Source of the DNA: Rhodospirillaceae bacterium
GTDB taxonomy: Bacteria > Pseudomonadota > Alphaproteobacteria > UBA6615
Length of the DNA: 64,000 nt
Assembly (NCBI GenBank): GCA_018667335.1
Contig: JABIVD010000022.1
Span: 62,001-126,000, forward strand
Direction: 5' to 3'
The first letter of the stretch is position 1. Each line of letters opens with the position of its first letter. Under the pieces are notes generated by a model that was not told where the DNA came from, made no database searches, and saw only the letters and a list, made by a program, of their open reading frames with translations. Below are positions 14,047 through 21,292 of this stretch, one piece after another. The translations under genes were made by a program, and so were the position numbers.

Positions 14047-15156
<1,110 letters not shown>

Positions 15157-15251
15157 GGCGATGTCTCCGGGATACGCGGTTGTTTTCGTTGCCGTCGAGT
15201 GTCCCAAGGCGGGCAGTCGAGTGCAAGCCTGATAGCGTGATTTCGGTTCGT

Positions 15252-15995
15252 TTAGCCCAGCACGCGGGCGTAGAGGTCGAACATCTTGCCCCAGACGATC
15301 TCGGCCGATGCCTCGTGATAGATGTCGCGCTGGGGAAACGCGAAGCCGTGATCGGTGTCCGCGAAGGTCTCGATCTCGTGGGGCACGCCCGCCGCGTCGA
15401 GCGCCGCGGTCAGGTCGGGGATCACGGTGTCGGGCACCCAGTGATCGCGCTCGGCGAAGGCGTAATACATCTCGCCCTCGATCTGCGGTGCCAGCAGGTG
15501 TGGGGAATCCTCGTGCTCGGTGACGATCCACACGCCATAGAGCGAAACATTCGCGGCGAACCGGTCGGGGAAACGTCCCGCGACCGTGGTGATGAAGGCG
15601 CCGCTCATGCAGTAGCCGACACAGCCCATGGGCCCGTCCGACGCTGCCGCGTCGTCGCCCAGTGCGGCCAGGATCGCGCCGGTGTCGCTGGCGACGCCAT
15701 CATTGGTCAGGCTGTGCCAGGCGGCGAAGATCATCTCGCCCATCTTCTCGGTGCGCTCGGCCAGGTTGAAGCGCAGCAATCCGAGCCGGTAATACAGGTC
15801 CGGCAGCACCGCGTAGTAGCCTTGGGCCGCGATGCGTCGCGCGAAGTCCCGCAGTTCCTCGCGGATGCCCGGCGCGTCCATATACATGACGATCACCGGG
15901 TAGGGGCCGTCGCCATGCTCACCCGGATCGGGCCAGGCGGCGAAGCTCGGCATGACCCCATCGGGGGTCGTGATGTTGAACTCTTTCTCGGCCAT
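15252..15995 (-). CDS. Dienelactone hydrolase family protein
   Basis: This 247-residue alpha/beta hydrolase has the nucleophile elbow GYCMSG (Cys nucleophile, as in dienelactone hydrolases), the acid region [11 protein letters not shown] and the His in [15 protein letters not shown]-family enzymes hydrolyse lactones or thioesters. Next to class III alcohol dehydrogenase an S-formylglutathione-hydrolase-like role could be imagined, but that enzyme normally comes from the esterase D family, so this is only inference. ATG 15995 lies 13 bases after the cytochrome gene stop, indicating co-transcription. Confidence 0.88.
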
Positions 15996-16007
15996 GGTTG
16001 TTCCCAA

Positions 16008-16883
16008 CTATTTCGCAGGCAGCGTGCGGAGATAGGCGACGATCGCCTGGAGGTCTTCCTCCGTGATGTTGGCGTAGAAGGGATACGCCATCGGCGGCGC
16101 CATCCGCGCGCCATCGGCCCGTGTGCCGGTCGTGATTCGCGCCTTGATGTCGGCGTAGCTCCGATCCGCCAGGGCCGTGGGTGTGATGTCCGCGGAGACG
16201 CTCGTGCCCCAGGGGCCGTGGAACTCGGCGCCGCCCGCGCCCAGCTTGTTCTCGAAGTCACGCATGCCGGGCTTGGCGAACGGCGTGTGGCATTCCATGC
16301 AATGCCCGGCCGGCCCGGCCAGGTAGGCGCCGTAGGCGACCCGGTCGTCGCGCGGCACGTTGGGCACGGACCCCACCGGCGGGCCATAGGCCGGCGGCAG
16401 CGGGAACTCGTATTTGGACTTCGCCACCACGTTGCGGACCGGCTTGACGGTGCGCAGATAGGCGACGATCGCCTGCGCGTCCCAGTCGGACAGGCCGCGG
16501 TACATCCCGATCGGCATCGGCGGGCCGATGGTCGAGCCGTCCGGGCGCTTGCCCTCGCGGATCGAGGCGATGATCTGCGCGTCGCTCCAACTGCCTATTC
16601 CGGTCTCCCTGTCGGGCGTGATGTTGCTCGAGACCGCCACGAATCCAGGCTCTTCGAACAGCAATCCACCGGCCAGGTTCTTGCCGGCGATCGGGCCGTT
16701 CGGGCCTTGGGGCGTGTGGCAATTGCCGCACGCGACGATCGATTCCATCAGATAGGTGCCGCGCTCCAGCAGAGTTTCTGCGGATGCGTGCGGCGCGCCG
16801 AGCCCGACAACAACGAGAAATGCCGCCAGAACAGCAGACGGAACAGCAGACGGAACAGCAGTCAAAAAGGTGCTAATTTTCAT
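16008..16883 (-). CDS. Periplasmic dihaem cytochrome c
   Basis: This 291-residue protein has a signal peptide (residues 1-35, ending PHASA) and two c-type haem motifs, CGNCH (about 52) and CMECH (about 195). Each sits in a cytochrome c domain with downstream Met-containing segments (PPMPIGMYRGLSDWD; APPMAYPFYANI). Such dihaem cytochromes accept electrons from periplasmic or membrane dehydrogenases, including alcohol/aldehyde dehydrogenases. It heads a possible transcript cytochrome-dienelactone hydrolase-formaldehyde dehydrogenase, which suggests C1 or alcohol oxidation. A 12-bp tandem repeat in the signal-peptide region encodes AVPSAVPSAV. Confidence 0.9.
   Translation of the reverse strand: MKISTFLTAVPSAVPSAVLAAFLVVVGLGAPHASAETLLERGTYLMESIVACGNCHTPQGPNGPIAGKNLAGGLLFEEPGFVAVSSNITPDRETGIGSWSDAQIIASIREGKRPDGSTIGPPMPIGMYRGLSDWDAQAIVAYLRTVKPVRNVVAKSKYEFPLPPAYGPPVGSVPNVPRDDRVAYGAYLAGPAGHCMECHTPFAKPGMRDFENKLGAGGAEFHGPWGTSVSADITPTALADRSYADIKARITTGTRADGARMAPPMAYPFYANITEEDLQAIVAYLRTLPAK
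16831..16861. repeat. 12-bp in-frame tandem repeat in cytochrome c signal peptide
   Basis: ACAGCAGACGGA occurs twice in tandem (16831-16842, 16843-16854) with a partial third copy to 16861. The unit is a multiple of three, so copy-number change would lengthen or shorten the signal peptide by four residues without frameshift. Confidence 0.75.
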
Positions 16884-16976: not shown

Positions 16977-18953
16977 TCAGAATCCGAACATGTGATCGAG
17001 CGAAAAGGCGCTCCCGTCGCGCGCGATCAGGCCATGATAGCCGAAAAGGCGACATGTGGTGTCGCGGATCAGTACATATCCGCCACCGGCCGCACCGGGT
17101 TCGGCTGCCGCCGTGCGGGCCTTGGCGTCGAAGGTTTCGCTGAGCCGGAAATGCACGGAGCCGCCACACGCGATGCGCAGGGTCTCCTCCGCCACCACAT
17201 GGCCGGCGCCGTCATGCAGCTGCAACACGGTCTCTGAGGTCACGTGCCACGGGGTCGATGCGGGATAGATCAGGTGACAGAAGGTGTCGAGATCGTCGCC
17301 GCCGACCGCCATCGCCGGGTCGGTGCGCAGGAACAGCCGCGTCGACAGGCCCGGCGGCGCGCCGGAATAGGATTGCGGCTCGTTGTTCCAGGTCAGGACC
17401 GTGTTGAAGATGTGGGCGCCGAAGCTGGTCTCCGCGGCATGGCCCGACCCGCGGGCCTCGTAGCGGAACAGCCCGTGCAGCCAGCCGTCGACGCCGCGCG
17501 TCGCGACCCCGAAATCATAGATGAGTTCGATATGCCCGGCATCGGTGCGGAGCACGTCTGCGCCGTCGAGGACATCGTCGATGTCCAGTACCGCGCTGTC
17601 CGATCGCGTGAGCTCGCCGAATTCATGCCGGCCGACTTCCTGTCCGGCGGCATCGAAGACCAACGCGCGCAGCGGCAGGGTTTCCTGGGTCGTCGCCATC
17701 GGCGTGGGCAGCGCGATCGAGCGGAAGTCATCGCGCGGCAGGATCGGCGCCGGCAGGATGAAGCCCTTGCCCATCAAGTTGCCGATCTCGGCGATGCGGG
17801 GATCGGGCGCGAGGTCGGTCCGCTCGACGTTTACATGTGCGGTCCTGCGTCGATCGACTGCGTCGTTGGACAGGCTCTCGATCTCGTAGCGCGGCCGCAC
17901 GAAATGCTTGCCCGCATGGACCTCGATCTGTGCCGGCCATCGCGCATCGGGGAGCAGGTCGGTGGCGTCGAGGGCATAGGTGCCGAAGGGCGCGATCTCC
18001 CGGTCGAGCCAGGCGGTCTTGTCGTCGCCCATGAGATTGAGGCCGACCACCCCGGCCGGGATCGGGCAGGGGTGACTGTTCTGGATCCAGAGAAGCACCC
18101 GTTCGCCGGGGGCCGGCGCCGGCAGGCCGGCGTAGAAATCGGCGGGCCACGCATTTGCATCGTGGGTGCAGGAGAGATCGCGCGGGTCATCGCCATAGGT
18201 GTCGAGCGCATATTTGACGATGTCGTGCCCGGTCGCGCCGATCGCATGAATGAACAGCTGTCCCGTGAAGTCCTCGATCCCGAACCGCGCGCAGACGTCG
18301 GCGCTGTCGATCGTCACGCCGCCCGGCGCGTCCGGCAACGCCAGATCCCATTCGGCGCGCGTGTGCCCGGTCTCGTCAATGAGTGTCAGCCACAGGGTCA
18401 CATTCGCGCCGCCGTAGCGATGCCAGTAGTTGGCCGTGGCCACGCGGGTATGCAGCCGCCCGCCGCGCCCATCGGGCACGTCGCGGAAGAAGGCGAAGTT
18501 CGTGGCGAAGTTGAGCGGATCGAGATAGCGGCGCGTGTTGGTCAGCCGGTCCTTGGGCAGGCGGAGTTCGTCGAGGGTGACGATCTCCATGCCGTCGGGC
18601 ACGAGCCGAGAGATATCGCGGACCACCTTCTCGGCGTCGAACGCGACGACCAGAAGATGCGTGGCGGTGGATGATGCGAGATCGGTCACGGGTTGGGTTG
18701 TTTTGCCCAACACGGGCTGGCCCAACGCCGACAAATCCTGGACCAGGACCTCCTCGATCGGGAGCGCGGCGAGGGGGAACAATTCCGCGAGCGCCGGCGC
18801 GAACCCCGAAGGATCGTAGATGGCAACGGCGCGGGCCGCGGCCAGGCGCGCCATCATGGCCTGTGCCATTGGTGCTGCCGCCGGGTGGCCGGCCGCCTTG
18901 AAGAACGGGAAGCCGCCCTTGCGGTTCGAGAAGGTATCGATGTTGAGGGCCAT
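16977..18953 (-). CDS. Uncharacterised 658-residue protein, linked to 2OG-Fe(II) oxygenase and ELM1-family genes
   Basis: I do not recognise a named family. The N-terminal ~140 residues alternate strand and helix (AVAIYDPSGFAPALAEL, HLLVVAFDAEKVV), like a Rossmann-type or amidohydrolase-like domain that could bind a nucleotide or sugar. The remainder is beta-rich and appears to contain repeated sandwich-like modules, each with an LxDxxGH-type strand (LTLIDETGHTRAEW, LVFDAAGQEVGRHEF, LQLHDGAGHVVAEE) and the second and third with a later GxHGL or GYHGL turn. There is no signal peptide or membrane helix. It starts nine bases after the 2OG oxygenase stop, so the two are surely co-transcribed. ATG 18953 (MALNIDTF) is chosen; longer extensions overlap the oxygenase gene. 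Confidence 0.75.
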   Translation of the reverse strand: MALNIDTFSNRKGGFPFFKAAGHPAAAPMAQAMMARLAAARAVAIYDPSGFAPALAELFPLAALPIEEVLVQDLSALGQPVLGKTTQPVTDLASSTATHLLVVAFDAEKVVRDISRLVPDGMEIVTLDELRLPKDRLTNTRRYLDPLNFATNFAFFRDVPDGRGGRLHTRVATANYWHRYGGANVTLWLTLIDETGHTRAEWDLALPDAPGGVTIDSADVCARFGIEDFTGQLFIHAIGATGHDIVKYALDTYGDDPRDLSCTHDANAWPADFYAGLPAPAPGERVLLWIQNSHPCPIPAGVVGLNLMGDDKTAWLDREIAPFGTYALDATDLLPDARWPAQIEVHAGKHFVRPRYEIESLSNDAVDRRRTAHVNVERTDLAPDPRIAEIGNLMGKGFILPAPILPRDDFRSIALPTPMATTQETLPLRALVFDAAGQEVGRHEFGELTRSDSAVLDIDDVLDGADVLRTDAGHIELIYDFGVATRGVDGWLHGLFRYEARGSGHAAETSFGAHIFNTVLTWNNEPQSYSGAPPGLSTRLFLRTDPAMAVGGDDLDTFCHLIYPASTPWHVTSETVLQLHDGAGHVVAEETLRIACGGSVHFRLSETFDAKARTAAAEPGAAGGGYVLIRDTTCRLFGYHGLIARDGSAFSLDHMFGF

Positions 18954-18961
18954 GGCGTTCG

Positions 18962-19585
18962 CTACCCGGCGATTTTCTTGAAGAATGCGGAGATCGAGTG
19001 CCGCACCTGCTCGCGCAGCTTGTAGCGGCGGCTGTTGACCCAGTTCAGCTGGATCGTCCGGCGCTCGCCGTCGAACGGATGGTGCCCGTGCCAGGCGTTG
19101 GGAATGCATGGGAAGGCGAGGAACGTGCCCTCGTCGGGCGGCACTTCGACCGCGTAATCATCGAGATCGTCGGGACTGCGCAGCAACCGCAACTGGCCGC
19201 CGGGCTCGTCCCACGATGAGTTCATGTACAGCAGGACCGTGACCAACTTGCCGGATGAATCCGTATGGATTTTTCCGTCGGTCGGCCGGGCGCGGCCGCG
19301 CACTGTGACCATGGTGGGTTTGCCGGTCAGGTCGACACCCAGTTTGTCACCCAGCGCCGCCGCCATCTCGGGGCCCTCAAGCGCTCTCAGCAGAGCCGCG
19401 AAACCGGGTCCGTAACGCAGTTGGCCCGTGGGGAAGCTGCCCGCGCTCTCGATATTTGGAAAATCCTCGTTGGCCGCACGCAGGGCATCCTGCGAGATCA
19501 GACCCGGCACGAGGACATGATCGAACGGGTCATGTCCAACGGGGGCTGATCCCAAGGCTTCGAAGTCGATGACTGACATACTCAT
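18962..19585 (-). CDS. 2OG-Fe(II) oxygenase family protein
   Basis: This 207-residue protein has the facial-triad pattern of prolyl-hydroxylase-like oxygenases: H-x-D in KIHTDSSGKLVTVLLYMN (about residues 106-108), the distal His in AWHGHHPF (about 165-170), and the oxoglutarate-binding Arg in ERRTIQLNWV. It should couple oxidative decarboxylation of 2-oxoglutarate to hydroxylation of a partner or small molecule. It lies between the ELM1-family gene and the 658-residue protein gene on the same strand with short gaps (35 and 8 bases), which suggests a shared task. Substrate unknown. Confidence 0.85.
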   Translation of the reverse strand: MSMSVIDFEALGSAPVGHDPFDHVLVPGLISQDALRAANEDFPNIESAGSFPTGQLRYGPGFAALLRALEGPEMAAALGDKLGVDLTGKPTMVTVRGRARPTDGKIHTDSSGKLVTVLLYMNSSWDEPGGQLRLLRSPDDLDDYAVEVPPDEGTFLAFPCIPNAWHGHHPFDGERRTIQLNWVNSRRYKLREQVRHSISAFFKKIAG

Positions 19586-19620
19586 TTCTTAGATCGCGAC
19601 TCGCGTGAATGCAAACGATG

Positions 19621-20598
19621 CTAGGCCCGTTCCATTGCGGCCATACGCCGCTGAATCTCGCCCACAACCACCGCCATGTCATCCGGCGGGTCGTAGGTCC
19701 ATTGTTCGAGTGTGCCGGCGAATGGCCGGGTGATGCCGCGCGCGGCCAACGCCTCATGGAAGCGCGTGAACTTCTTCGATCCGCCCTCGAGGTGGACCAC
19801 ATGTACCGGCTTGCCCGTGGCCGCCGCCTCGCTGACCATGTTCACGGAATCTCCCGTCACGATGATCGAGTCCGCGTGGGCGAGGAATCCCAGATACGGA
19901 TTCGGCCCGGTCTCGTCCCAGATATCGACATCCAGCCCGTCGAGCGCGGTTCGGACCGCATCGAGCACGAAGCCGGGCGTGCGCCTGGACGGCGTGATGG
20001 CCAGCCCCCAGCCGTGATCGGCCGCGAGCGCGCGCAATTGCATCGCCAGTGTTTCACCCAGCGCCGGCGTCATGCGGTAGACCGCGTTGTCTCCCCCCAG
20101 GAGGACGCCCGCGAGCGGACGGGGCAGGCGCGCCACCCGGTCGGCGAATGCCGCCCGCGCGCCCTCGAGCGCGGCGGGGTCGACGCCCTGCATCGCGCCA
20201 AGCGTCGAGACGACATTGTCGCCACGCAGGCGGTCATGGTCGGGTGCCACGACGAGGTCGAACGATCCGACTGCGATCCCGGGATCCTGGATCTGGATGC
20301 AAAAGGTCCGCCCGCCGCTGGCCTTGCGGATGGCCTGGGCCGGCGCCACCGATTTTCGGCCGGACGCGATCAACAGGTCGGGCCAGGGCGGCGCGAGCGG
20401 CGTGGAGCCGGCGGTGATCACGCTTGTCCTGGCCGGGATCAGCGTCGGGGGCAGCCATGCCCAGGGGCGGCGCAGATCAACGGTCTTGATGTCGGGGTCG
20501 TGGCCCAGTGCGCGGGCGAGGCCGAGGCATTGGTTCACCATGCCGATCTTGCCATCGGTGAGAATCCAGCAGGATTGGATGTTGGGCGGTGCGGTCAT
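19621..20598 (-). CDS. Mitochondrial fission ELM1 family protein (DUF1022)
   Basis: This 325-residue protein starts SCWILTDGKIGMVNQCLGLARALG, the hallmark of bacterial ELM1-like proteins. It has a GT-B-like two-domain pattern with GVLLGGDNAVYRM mid-protein and the donor-site-like TGDSVNMVSEAAATGKPVHV at about residue 245. The family is named after a plant mitochondrial fission factor, but bacterial members resemble nucleotide-sugar-dependent transferases and are often found with lipid A or envelope genes. An ATG at 20598 is preferred over TTG 20604. It is the first gene of the minus-strand trio and is divergent from the Lrp gene. Confidence 0.85.
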   Translation of the reverse strand: MTAPPNIQSCWILTDGKIGMVNQCLGLARALGHDPDIKTVDLRRPWAWLPPTLIPARTSVITAGSTPLAPPWPDLLIASGRKSVAPAQAIRKASGGRTFCIQIQDPGIAVGSFDLVVAPDHDRLRGDNVVSTLGAMQGVDPAALEGARAAFADRVARLPRPLAGVLLGGDNAVYRMTPALGETLAMQLRALAADHGWGLAITPSRRTPGFVLDAVRTALDGLDVDIWDETGPNPYLGFLAHADSIIVTGDSVNMVSEAAATGKPVHVVHLEGGSKKFTRFHEALAARGITRPFAGTLEQWTYDPPDDMAVVVGEIQRRMAAMERA

Positions 20599-20649: not shown

Positions 20650-20666
20650 TTGAAATATAATTTCAA
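20650..20666. promoter_or_regulatory. Palindromic site in the ELM1-lrp intergenic region
   Basis: TTGAAAT-ATA-ATTTCAA is a perfect 7-bp inverted repeat with a three-base centre. It lies 52 bases before the ELM1-family start and 110 bases before the Lrp start. Its AT-rich symmetric form fits an Lrp/AsnC-family operator, so the Lrp protein may control itself and the divergent trio. Confidence 0.5.
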
Positions 20667-20776
20667 TCTGCTAGCATCCGGTTCGGCTGTAACGGTGACT
20701 ATAAGCGGGGCAATGGGTGATTCCCATTGCGGGTCCCGTGAAAAGAAAAGCCGGGCCACCCTGGAGAGTGCAGAGA

Positions 20777-21292
20777 ATGCCGGACAGTGATCGGGGGGGC
20801 GAAGGCGCCCTGAACCGCAAAGTTAAACTCGATGCGATCGACCGGCGAATCCTCCGCAATCTTCGCGATGAAGGCCGCATCACAAATGTCGAGCTTGCGC
20901 GGCGTGCCGGAATTTCCGCACCGCCCTGTCTGCGCCGCGTCCGTGCGCTGGAATCAGCTGGTTACATCAAGGGCTATCACGCCGAACTCGAGGCCGAGCA
21001 ACTCGGCTACGAGGTCGCGTTTCACGCATTGGTCGGGCTCGACAGCCAATCCGATGCGGTGTTGACCGAATTTGAACGCGTCGTGGCCGATTGGCCCGAG
21101 GTGCGCCGCTGCGACATGATCCGTGGCGGCGGCGATTTCATGCTGCGTTTCGTGGCCCGCAACACCGCCCACGAGAACGAACTGACCACCCGTCTGACGG
21201 GGGTGCTCCATGTCTCGACGGTGCAGACGTTTCAGGTGATCCGAAGTTCGAAATACGCCTCGGGCGTCCCGGTGGACGATCCGGCGGACTAA
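20777..21292 (+). CDS. Lrp/AsnC family transcriptional regulator
   Basis: This 171-residue regulator has an N-terminal helix-turn-helix (LDAIDRRILRNLRDEGRIT, VELARRAGISAPPCLRRVRALE) and a C-terminal RAM ligand-binding domain (FHALVGLDSQ, VRRCDMIRGGGDFMLRFVA). ATG 20777 is preceded by GAGAG and gives a short basic N-terminal tail; the frame is open to 20717 but that extension lacks support. Lrp proteins usually sense amino acids and bind tandem palindromic sites; a candidate site is at 20650-20666. It is divergent from the ELM1-family trio. Confidence 0.92.
   Translation: MPDSDRGGEGALNRKVKLDAIDRRILRNLRDEGRITNVELARRAGISAPPCLRRVRALESAGYIKGYHAELEAEQLGYEVAFHALVGLDSQSDAVLTEFERVVADWPEVRRCDMIRGGGDFMLRFVARNTAHENELTTRLTGVLHVSTVQTFQVIRSSKYASGVPVDDPAD

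Follow-up and report, generated by a model that had tools for sequence, protein, structure and literature searches.

An alphaproteobacterial operon of an ELM1-family glycosyltransferase, an accessory oxygenase and an undescribed 658-residue protein, with a possible role in lipopolysaccharide core glycosylation

What does a conserved gene set make when its largest member belongs to no recognized protein family? The question is raised by three minus-strand genes in a 64,000-nucleotide stretch of the alphaproteobacterium Rhodospirillaceae bacterium (assembly GCA_018667335.1, contig JABIVD010000022.1, positions 62,001 to 126,000; hereafter the window). They encode a protein of 658 residues (P0001), a 2-oxoglutarate (2OG)-Fe(II) oxygenase (P0002) and an ELM1-family protein (P0003), and they face a gene for an Lrp/AsnC-family regulator (P0004) across a palindromic site. 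A preliminary description had read the three genes as a tight operon with a common product, perhaps an envelope glycoconjugate. The coordinates and reading frames of this layout were confirmed (Table 1), and the gaps of 8 bases between the genes for P0001 and P0002 and of 35 bases between those for P0002 and P0003 bear out its compactness. The operon is real, conserved and uncharacterized as a set, and its arrangement is not due to chance, because it recurs across the class.

The 658-residue protein represents a real and highly conserved family. P0001 matched no Pfam or NCBIfam model up to an E-value of 1, in agreement with the preliminary description, which had recognized no family in it; when 18 family members were compared with Pfam up to E 10, no Pfam family was hit by two or more of them, and sequence searches of the PDB with P0001 and with the sequence A1 returned nothing below E 0.5. 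Likewise, no description of the family or of the gene set was found in the open-licence literature, subscription journals lying outside the coverage; the preliminary description, too, knew of no described system with this set. The gene is present in single copy in the window's genome, and homologs were identified in 21 of the 24 genomes of the organism's family. An even sample of 385 alphaproteobacterial genomes included 86 with a homolog (73 of the 315 of good quality). GTDB contigs yielded 576 loci, the best 80 of which (L046-L125) constitute the named loci and, together with 20 distant ones, a 100-locus set; greedy de-duplication retained 103 of 142 homologs. Culturable bacteria among the carriers are Nitrospirillum amazonense (L076, L079 and L081), Azospirillum (L105 and L122) and Pelagibius (L061). 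Identity to P0001 is 44-64% across most of the class, and conservation reaches the final residue. A 710-residue version of P0001 was rejected as an upstream in-frame extension, homologs beginning at the methionine of a MALxI motif. Among 249 genomes of the phylum the sole match was the window's own genome, a result that says little on other classes because this draw also held many alphaproteobacteria. One decayed copy was also observed (G185:C55), with the 658-residue gene split and carrying two TGA stops and the oxygenase in two pieces.

Genome co-occurrence and changes of adjacency on the family tree identify ELM1 as the near-constant partner of this protein and the oxygenase as a recurrent accessory. 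Of the 86 genomes that encode the 658-residue protein, 85 also encode ELM1, and the exception is 70% complete. At E 1e-20 the oxygenase was detected in 66 of the 385 genomes, 57 with the 658-residue protein and nine without; inspection of coordinates placed the two genes side by side in 42 of the 57 and apart in 15. Fisher values for co-occurrence are inflated by shared descent. The preliminary description would have been refuted by homologs standing mostly without ELM1 or oxygenase neighbors, and this was not the case: the 80 named loci, several of them on contigs too short to hold the genes in question, include 71 with ELM1, 54 with the oxygenase and 61 with the Lrp gene. In the 100-locus set, the corresponding figures were 84 for ELM1 (83 on the same strand) and 58 for the oxygenase (always on the same strand). 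On a FastTree phylogeny of 104 members, the oxygenase gene adjoins the large gene in 55 and is missing from that place in 49. This state switches at least 15 times along the tree, and ELM1 adjacency at least eight times. Together, these results leave the linkage between ELM1 and the 658-residue protein well supported and give no support to an obligate trio with a single common product. Co-occurrence of the oxygenase with the large protein holds for most oxygenase-positive genomes and is looser in the other direction, since 29 of the 86 genomes with the 658-residue protein have no oxygenase at the same threshold.

P0003 matches PF06258 (Mito_fiss_Elm1) at E 6.6e-102, with 341 bits against a curated cut-off of 27. 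Its earlier interpretation as a sugar transferase was borne out by the ELM1-family protein KdoT, reported to be a transferase of 3-deoxy-D-manno-oct-2-ulosonic acid (Kdo; PMC12856342). An earlier survey had already counted Mito_fiss_Elm1 proteins among the glycosyltransferases predicted for the outer-core locus of Acinetobacter (PMC4172580), and the bacterial ELM1 family had no known function until the work on A. baumannii (PMC10936431, PMC12856342). An ELM1-like mutant of that species was described in mBio in 2024 as having its core reduced to two Kdo (PMC10936431), and in the Journal of Biological Chemistry in 2025 purified KdoT was reported to move Kdo from cytidine monophosphate (CMP)-Kdo to Kdo2-lipid IVA, and a Rickettsia rickettsii homolog to restore the core (PMC12856342). 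Within the SRRT motif of KdoT, the second arginine (R180) is reported as important and the first (R179) as dispensable (PMC12856342). Across 145 ELM1 loci, the aligned motif reads SRRT in 128, SPRT in eight, SRRS in five, SFRT in three and SQRT in one, with the second arginine kept in all 145 and the first in 133; some genomes occur both among L001-L045 and among L046-L145, so these counts, and those over 102 loci given below, are not all independent. In the alignment, this is the pattern that the published KdoT mutants predict. P0003 thus shares with KdoT and its R. rickettsii homolog the PF06258 domain, the SRRT motif with its important second arginine (PMC12856342) and a proteobacterial setting, Rickettsia being alphaproteobacterial like the window organism. 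It differs in context, in that KdoT is reported to lie in a lipooligosaccharide core cluster and to act with GnaT (PMC12856342), whereas P0003 is encoded beside the oxygenase and the 658-residue protein and opposite Lrp. By analogy with this relative, P0003 may transfer Kdo, the identity of the sugar resting on a single family precedent and the conserved motif.

P0002 matches PF13640 (2OG-FeII_Oxy_3) at E 3.2e-9, and no variation is seen across 102 loci in its metal and 2OG ligands (H107, D109, H166 and R175), which fits an active 2OG-Fe(II) enzyme. Its closest solved chains by sequence are 9blq, a putative hydroxylase (E 2.3e-12), and 9ei6 (E 8.7e-5); a search for literature naming these two entries found nothing relevant. 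A precedent is provided by KdoO, described as an Fe(II)/2OG Kdo 3-hydroxylase that works after the Kdo transferase and whose gene in Burkholderia adjoins the Kdo transferase gene (PMC8533242, PMC5462993). Like the Burkholderia WaaA-KdoO-WaaC arrangement (PMC5462993, PMC8533242), the operon pairs the genes of a sugar transferase and a 2OG-Fe(II) oxygenase, and P0002 has the HxD...H plus Arg ligand pattern; unlike it, the operon has a transferase of the ELM1 rather than the WaaA family, an oxygenase of PF13640 and an additional 658-residue protein. Because P0002 falls in another Pfam family, KdoO serves as a precedent for the logic of the pair and not for membership. In the window's own genome (L197:6007-7323, contig C50) we observed a second oxygenase copy, 46% identical to P0002, followed by an oxygenase-like protein without a Pfam family. 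Similar oxygenase pairs occur in L184, L105 and L122; in the last two loci the pair lies between ELM1 and the 658-residue gene.

The predicted structure of the 658-residue protein agrees with the Rossmann-like N-terminus and the beta-rich modules of the preliminary description. AlphaFold2 modeled full-length P0001 from 18 sequences with a predicted local distance difference test (pLDDT) of 86.5 and a predicted template modeling score (pTM) of 0.89, and prediction of residues 382-658 alone, from 57 sequences, reached 91.2 and 0.91; beyond the N-terminal 145 residues the models are beta-sandwich. At least two of the sandwich domains are predicted to adopt the Anabaena sensory rhodopsin transducer (ASRT) fold, with Z-scores of 9.8 and 10.7 to Thermotoga TM1070 (1nc7). 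In these fold comparisons, residues 268-379 match TM1070 over 106 of 116 residues, and residues 534-658 match the Anabaena transducer (2ii7, 2ii8, 2ii9) at Z 8.2-8.7, the next unrelated row standing at 5.3. We claim a shared fold rather than superfamily membership because sequence profiles give no support. None of 18 family members matched PF07100 at E up to 10. By eye, candidates for the tryptophan at the start of strand 1 and the asparagine at the end of strand 2 that mark the superfamily are seen in the domain of residues 268-379 (W269 and N292) and not in the last domain. In the models, the ASRT fold is attributed only to residues 268-379 and 534-658, and not to residues 146-266 or 382-519; four copies are not claimed, because hhalign between the P0001 domain profiles reached at best 37% (third against fourth), then 19% and 17%, and nothing in global mode.

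TM1070 and the Anabaena transducer are reported as founding members of the ASRAH superfamily, for which sugar binding has been proposed and whose proteins exist either as stand-alone tetramers or in tandem, as dyads and tetrads, one family lying beside a glycosyltransferase (PMC2739507). The likeness of P0001 to this group consists in the predicted fold of the two domains (1nc7, 2ii7) and in a tandem layout and glycosyltransferase linkage also described for secreted actinobacterial members (PMC2739507); the difference is that P0001 has no PF07100 match or profile-level similarity and is intracellular, multidomain and fused to a Rossmann-like domain. Two sets of structural matches were discarded: long Foldseek hits in the PDB to complement C3, factor XIII and glycoside hydrolase family 2, at template modeling scores of about 0.1-0.2, were beta-rich noise, and the Rex-like match of the N-terminal domain (Z 7.7) was dropped as proof of NAD binding, the background being 7 to 8.

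The interpretation that we favor, tentatively and at somewhat less than an even chance, is that the operon encodes a cytoplasmic ELM1/KdoT-type glycosylation module of the lipopolysaccharide (LPS) core, with a sugar-binding 658-residue partner and an optional hydroxylase. The envelope glycoconjugate of the preliminary description is thereby narrowed to an LPS inner-core-type step, because the ELM1-family KdoT is reported to be a Kdo transferase (PMC12856342). P0003 would act as a KdoT-like inverting transferase of the GT-B fold, moving Kdo or a Kdo-like sugar from a CMP donor to a lipid-linked acceptor on the cytoplasmic side of the inner membrane. Where present, the oxygenase would hydroxylate the transferred sugar or its carrier lipid, as KdoO converts Kdo to D-glycero-D-talo-oct-2-ulosonic acid (Ko). 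The 658-residue protein would be a soluble partner of the transferase: its ASRT-fold sandwiches would bind the sugar or the nascent core, its Rossmann-like domain might bind a nucleotide, and the protein would position, sense or gate glycosyl transfer, the whole module probably being under Lrp control. If so, a function could be assigned to a family that has no name and occurs in 86 of the 385 genomes, the means of varying the LPS inner core would become visible in bacteria of little-studied core chemistry, and the sugar-binding proposal for the ASRT fold would gain a testable system. For the ELM1 family, found in 314 of the 385 genomes, the locus provides two partners, a conserved protein and a hydroxylase. 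A bolder version strikes us as possible but doubtful: the 658-residue protein would found a new family of intracellular glycan-binding scaffolds, a Rossmann-like domain with up to four tandem ASRT-fold domains copying the ASRT homotetramer within one chain, that serves ELM1/KdoT in about one fifth of the Alphaproteobacteria. Together with an unrelated 2OG oxygenase it would make up a second Kdo-transfer-and-hydroxylation system, one that was assembled independently and exists alongside WaaA/KdoO.

Several relatives of the locus carry genes of envelope biogenesis. The 658-residue gene lies downstream of LptD and LptF/LptG genes in L130, and in L144 a family 9 glycosyltransferase (GT9), a heptosyltransferase, is encoded about 6.4 kb from the homolog. 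Furthermore, in six loci (L072, L089, L096, L099, L103 and L115) ELM1, wherever the contig reaches it, is separated from the 658-residue gene by genes for a PAP2 phosphatase and, on the opposite strand, a PMT_2-type transferase, as judged from a Pfam run on one protein of each kind; this insert resembles enzymes that modify lipid A or the core. The window's genome and seven of seven genus members have genes for LpxC and of the CMP-Kdo-synthetase type (PF02348, which extends beyond KdsB). No LPS core cluster was seen beside the trio in the window.

Other observations weigh against an LPS inner-core step. WaaA was matched in 324 of the 385 genomes and in five of the seven genus members, and no match was obtained in the window's own assembly, which is 96% complete. 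WaaA was not matched in 28 of the 314 ELM1-positive genomes, several of which are complete; ELM1 is therefore not linked to Kdo in every genome and may have another role in those 28. P0002 matched only PF13640 and PF13661 up to E 1, and not the Kdo hydroxylase model (PF11004). Against a thin three-sequence ASRT profile, the P0001 domains reached hhalign probabilities of 0.17 and 0.24 percent. To these points are added the 29 oxygenase-free genomes noted above and the chance that part of the linkage is inherited gene order. The product, Kdo or another, is something that we infer, and so are the target of hydroxylation, the sugar binding and partner role of the 658-residue protein and the control by Lrp. 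Among the genomes with ELM1 and without a WaaA match are complete ones from groups f38 and f131, which carry two or three divergent copies of ELM1.

The best-surviving alternative, though an unlikely one, is that the 658-residue protein is itself an enzyme acting on a surface glycan, not necessarily LPS, for example as a hydrolase, a transacylase or a further transferase, with ELM1 adding another sugar and the oxygenase trimming the product. Across the 104 de-duplicated members, 122 positions are at least 97% identical, many of them histidine, aspartate, tryptophan or arginine, a density usual for enzymes; an SCTHDAN motif is near-invariant, and homologs without ELM1 nearby occur in L128, L130, L134 and L136. 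The structural comparisons point the other way, in that no enzyme fold was matched apart from the Rossmann-like domain and the remaining domains resemble binding sandwiches.

It is less probable still that the genes share no function and merely persist in an old chromosomal neighborhood that was never broken up. A wider block, carB-greA-Lrp/ELM1-oxygenase-658-trxB-LysR, is conserved around most loci, with carB, greA, trxB or LysR homologs nearby, and part of it is retained in 62 of the 73 loci whose flanks extend 2.5 kb or more in both directions; because most loci keep this block, the linkage may in part reflect gene order passed down by descent. In the 62, ELM1 lies within 1.5 kb in 48, farther away in eight and is not found in six. 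Since the carB-greA-trxB block could alone explain adjacency, loci outside it were examined: in seven of 11, ELM1 lies directly upstream of the large gene on the same strand, and four have no ELM1 nearby. The retained pairs, the co-occurrence in 85 of 86 genomes for ELM1 and 57 of 66 for the oxygenase, and the repeated loss and gain at a single operon position all argue for a functional tie.

Least probable is that P0002 is a protein hydroxylase acting on proline motifs of the 658-residue protein (GLPAP, LPAPILP and LPTPM) as an oxygen or 2OG signal, an idea encouraged by the name of 9ei6 (prolyl 4-hydroxylase alpha subunit domain-containing protein), by the strong co-occurrence and by the 8-base gap, and countered by the motifs being about equally kept in 14 members without the oxygenase and 18 with it, by the 15 of 57 genomes in which the oxygenase lies elsewhere, and by its pairing in L182 with ELM1 alone, without a 658-residue gene and beside a family 2 glycosyltransferase.

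The site between the ELM1 and Lrp genes is also conserved. Both arms of the palindrome are identical in seven of seven aligned sequences, from the window and six near relatives, and the flanks diverge. Degenerate palindromes of the form GnAATnATATTnC are present in many of 66 Lrp-ELM1 spacers, and for the exact pattern the shuffle frequency is at most 0.01 in 33 of the 66. Judged by its sequence, the palindrome is most simply a candidate Lrp operator, serving Lrp alone or also the operon. A perfect 8-base inverted repeat (GCAATGGG/CCCATTGC) was also noted upstream of the Lrp start, at window positions 20710-20730.

Table 1. Features of the locus, in window coordinates
Feature	Coordinates	Strand	Basis
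658-residue protein P0001, new uncharacterized family, with predicted Rossmann-like N-terminal domain and beta-sandwich domains	16977-18953	-	Gene call, family and structure analyses
P0001 residues 534-658, predicted ASRT-fold beta-sandwich	16980-17354	-	1nc7 Z 10.7; 2ii7 Z 8.7
P0001 residues 268-379, predicted ASRT-fold beta-sandwich	17817-18152	-	1nc7 Z 9.8, 106 residues, 3.4 A
P0001 residues 1-145, predicted Rossmann-like domain	18519-18953	-	Rex-like match Z 7.7 over residues 40-140, background level
2OG-Fe(II) oxygenase P0002, 207 residues	18962-19585	-	PF13640
ELM1-family glycosyltransferase P0003, 325 residues, KdoT-like	19621-20598	-	PF06258
SRRT motif of P0003, residues 204-207; second Arg the counterpart of A. 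baumannii KdoT R180	19978-19989	-	Alignment
Palindrome TTGAAAT-ATA-ATTTCAA, 17 bases, between ELM1 and Lrp, probable Lrp operator	20650-20666	.	Conservation in relatives
Lrp/AsnC-family regulator P0004, divergent from the trio	20777-21292	+	Lrp/AsnC domains

Two observations concern neighboring genes. In L131 and L132, outside the usual block, a 5-aminolevulinate-synthase-like gene (assigned by eye, with PF00155 in L132) precedes ELM1 and the 658-residue gene. In the window, genes for cytochrome c-like and dienelactone hydrolase-like proteins and for a class III alcohol dehydrogenase (the last assigned by eye) lie on the minus strand between the trio and trxB (14047-16883), and hydrolase and cytochrome genes of these types are also found downstream in the relatives L049 and L051.

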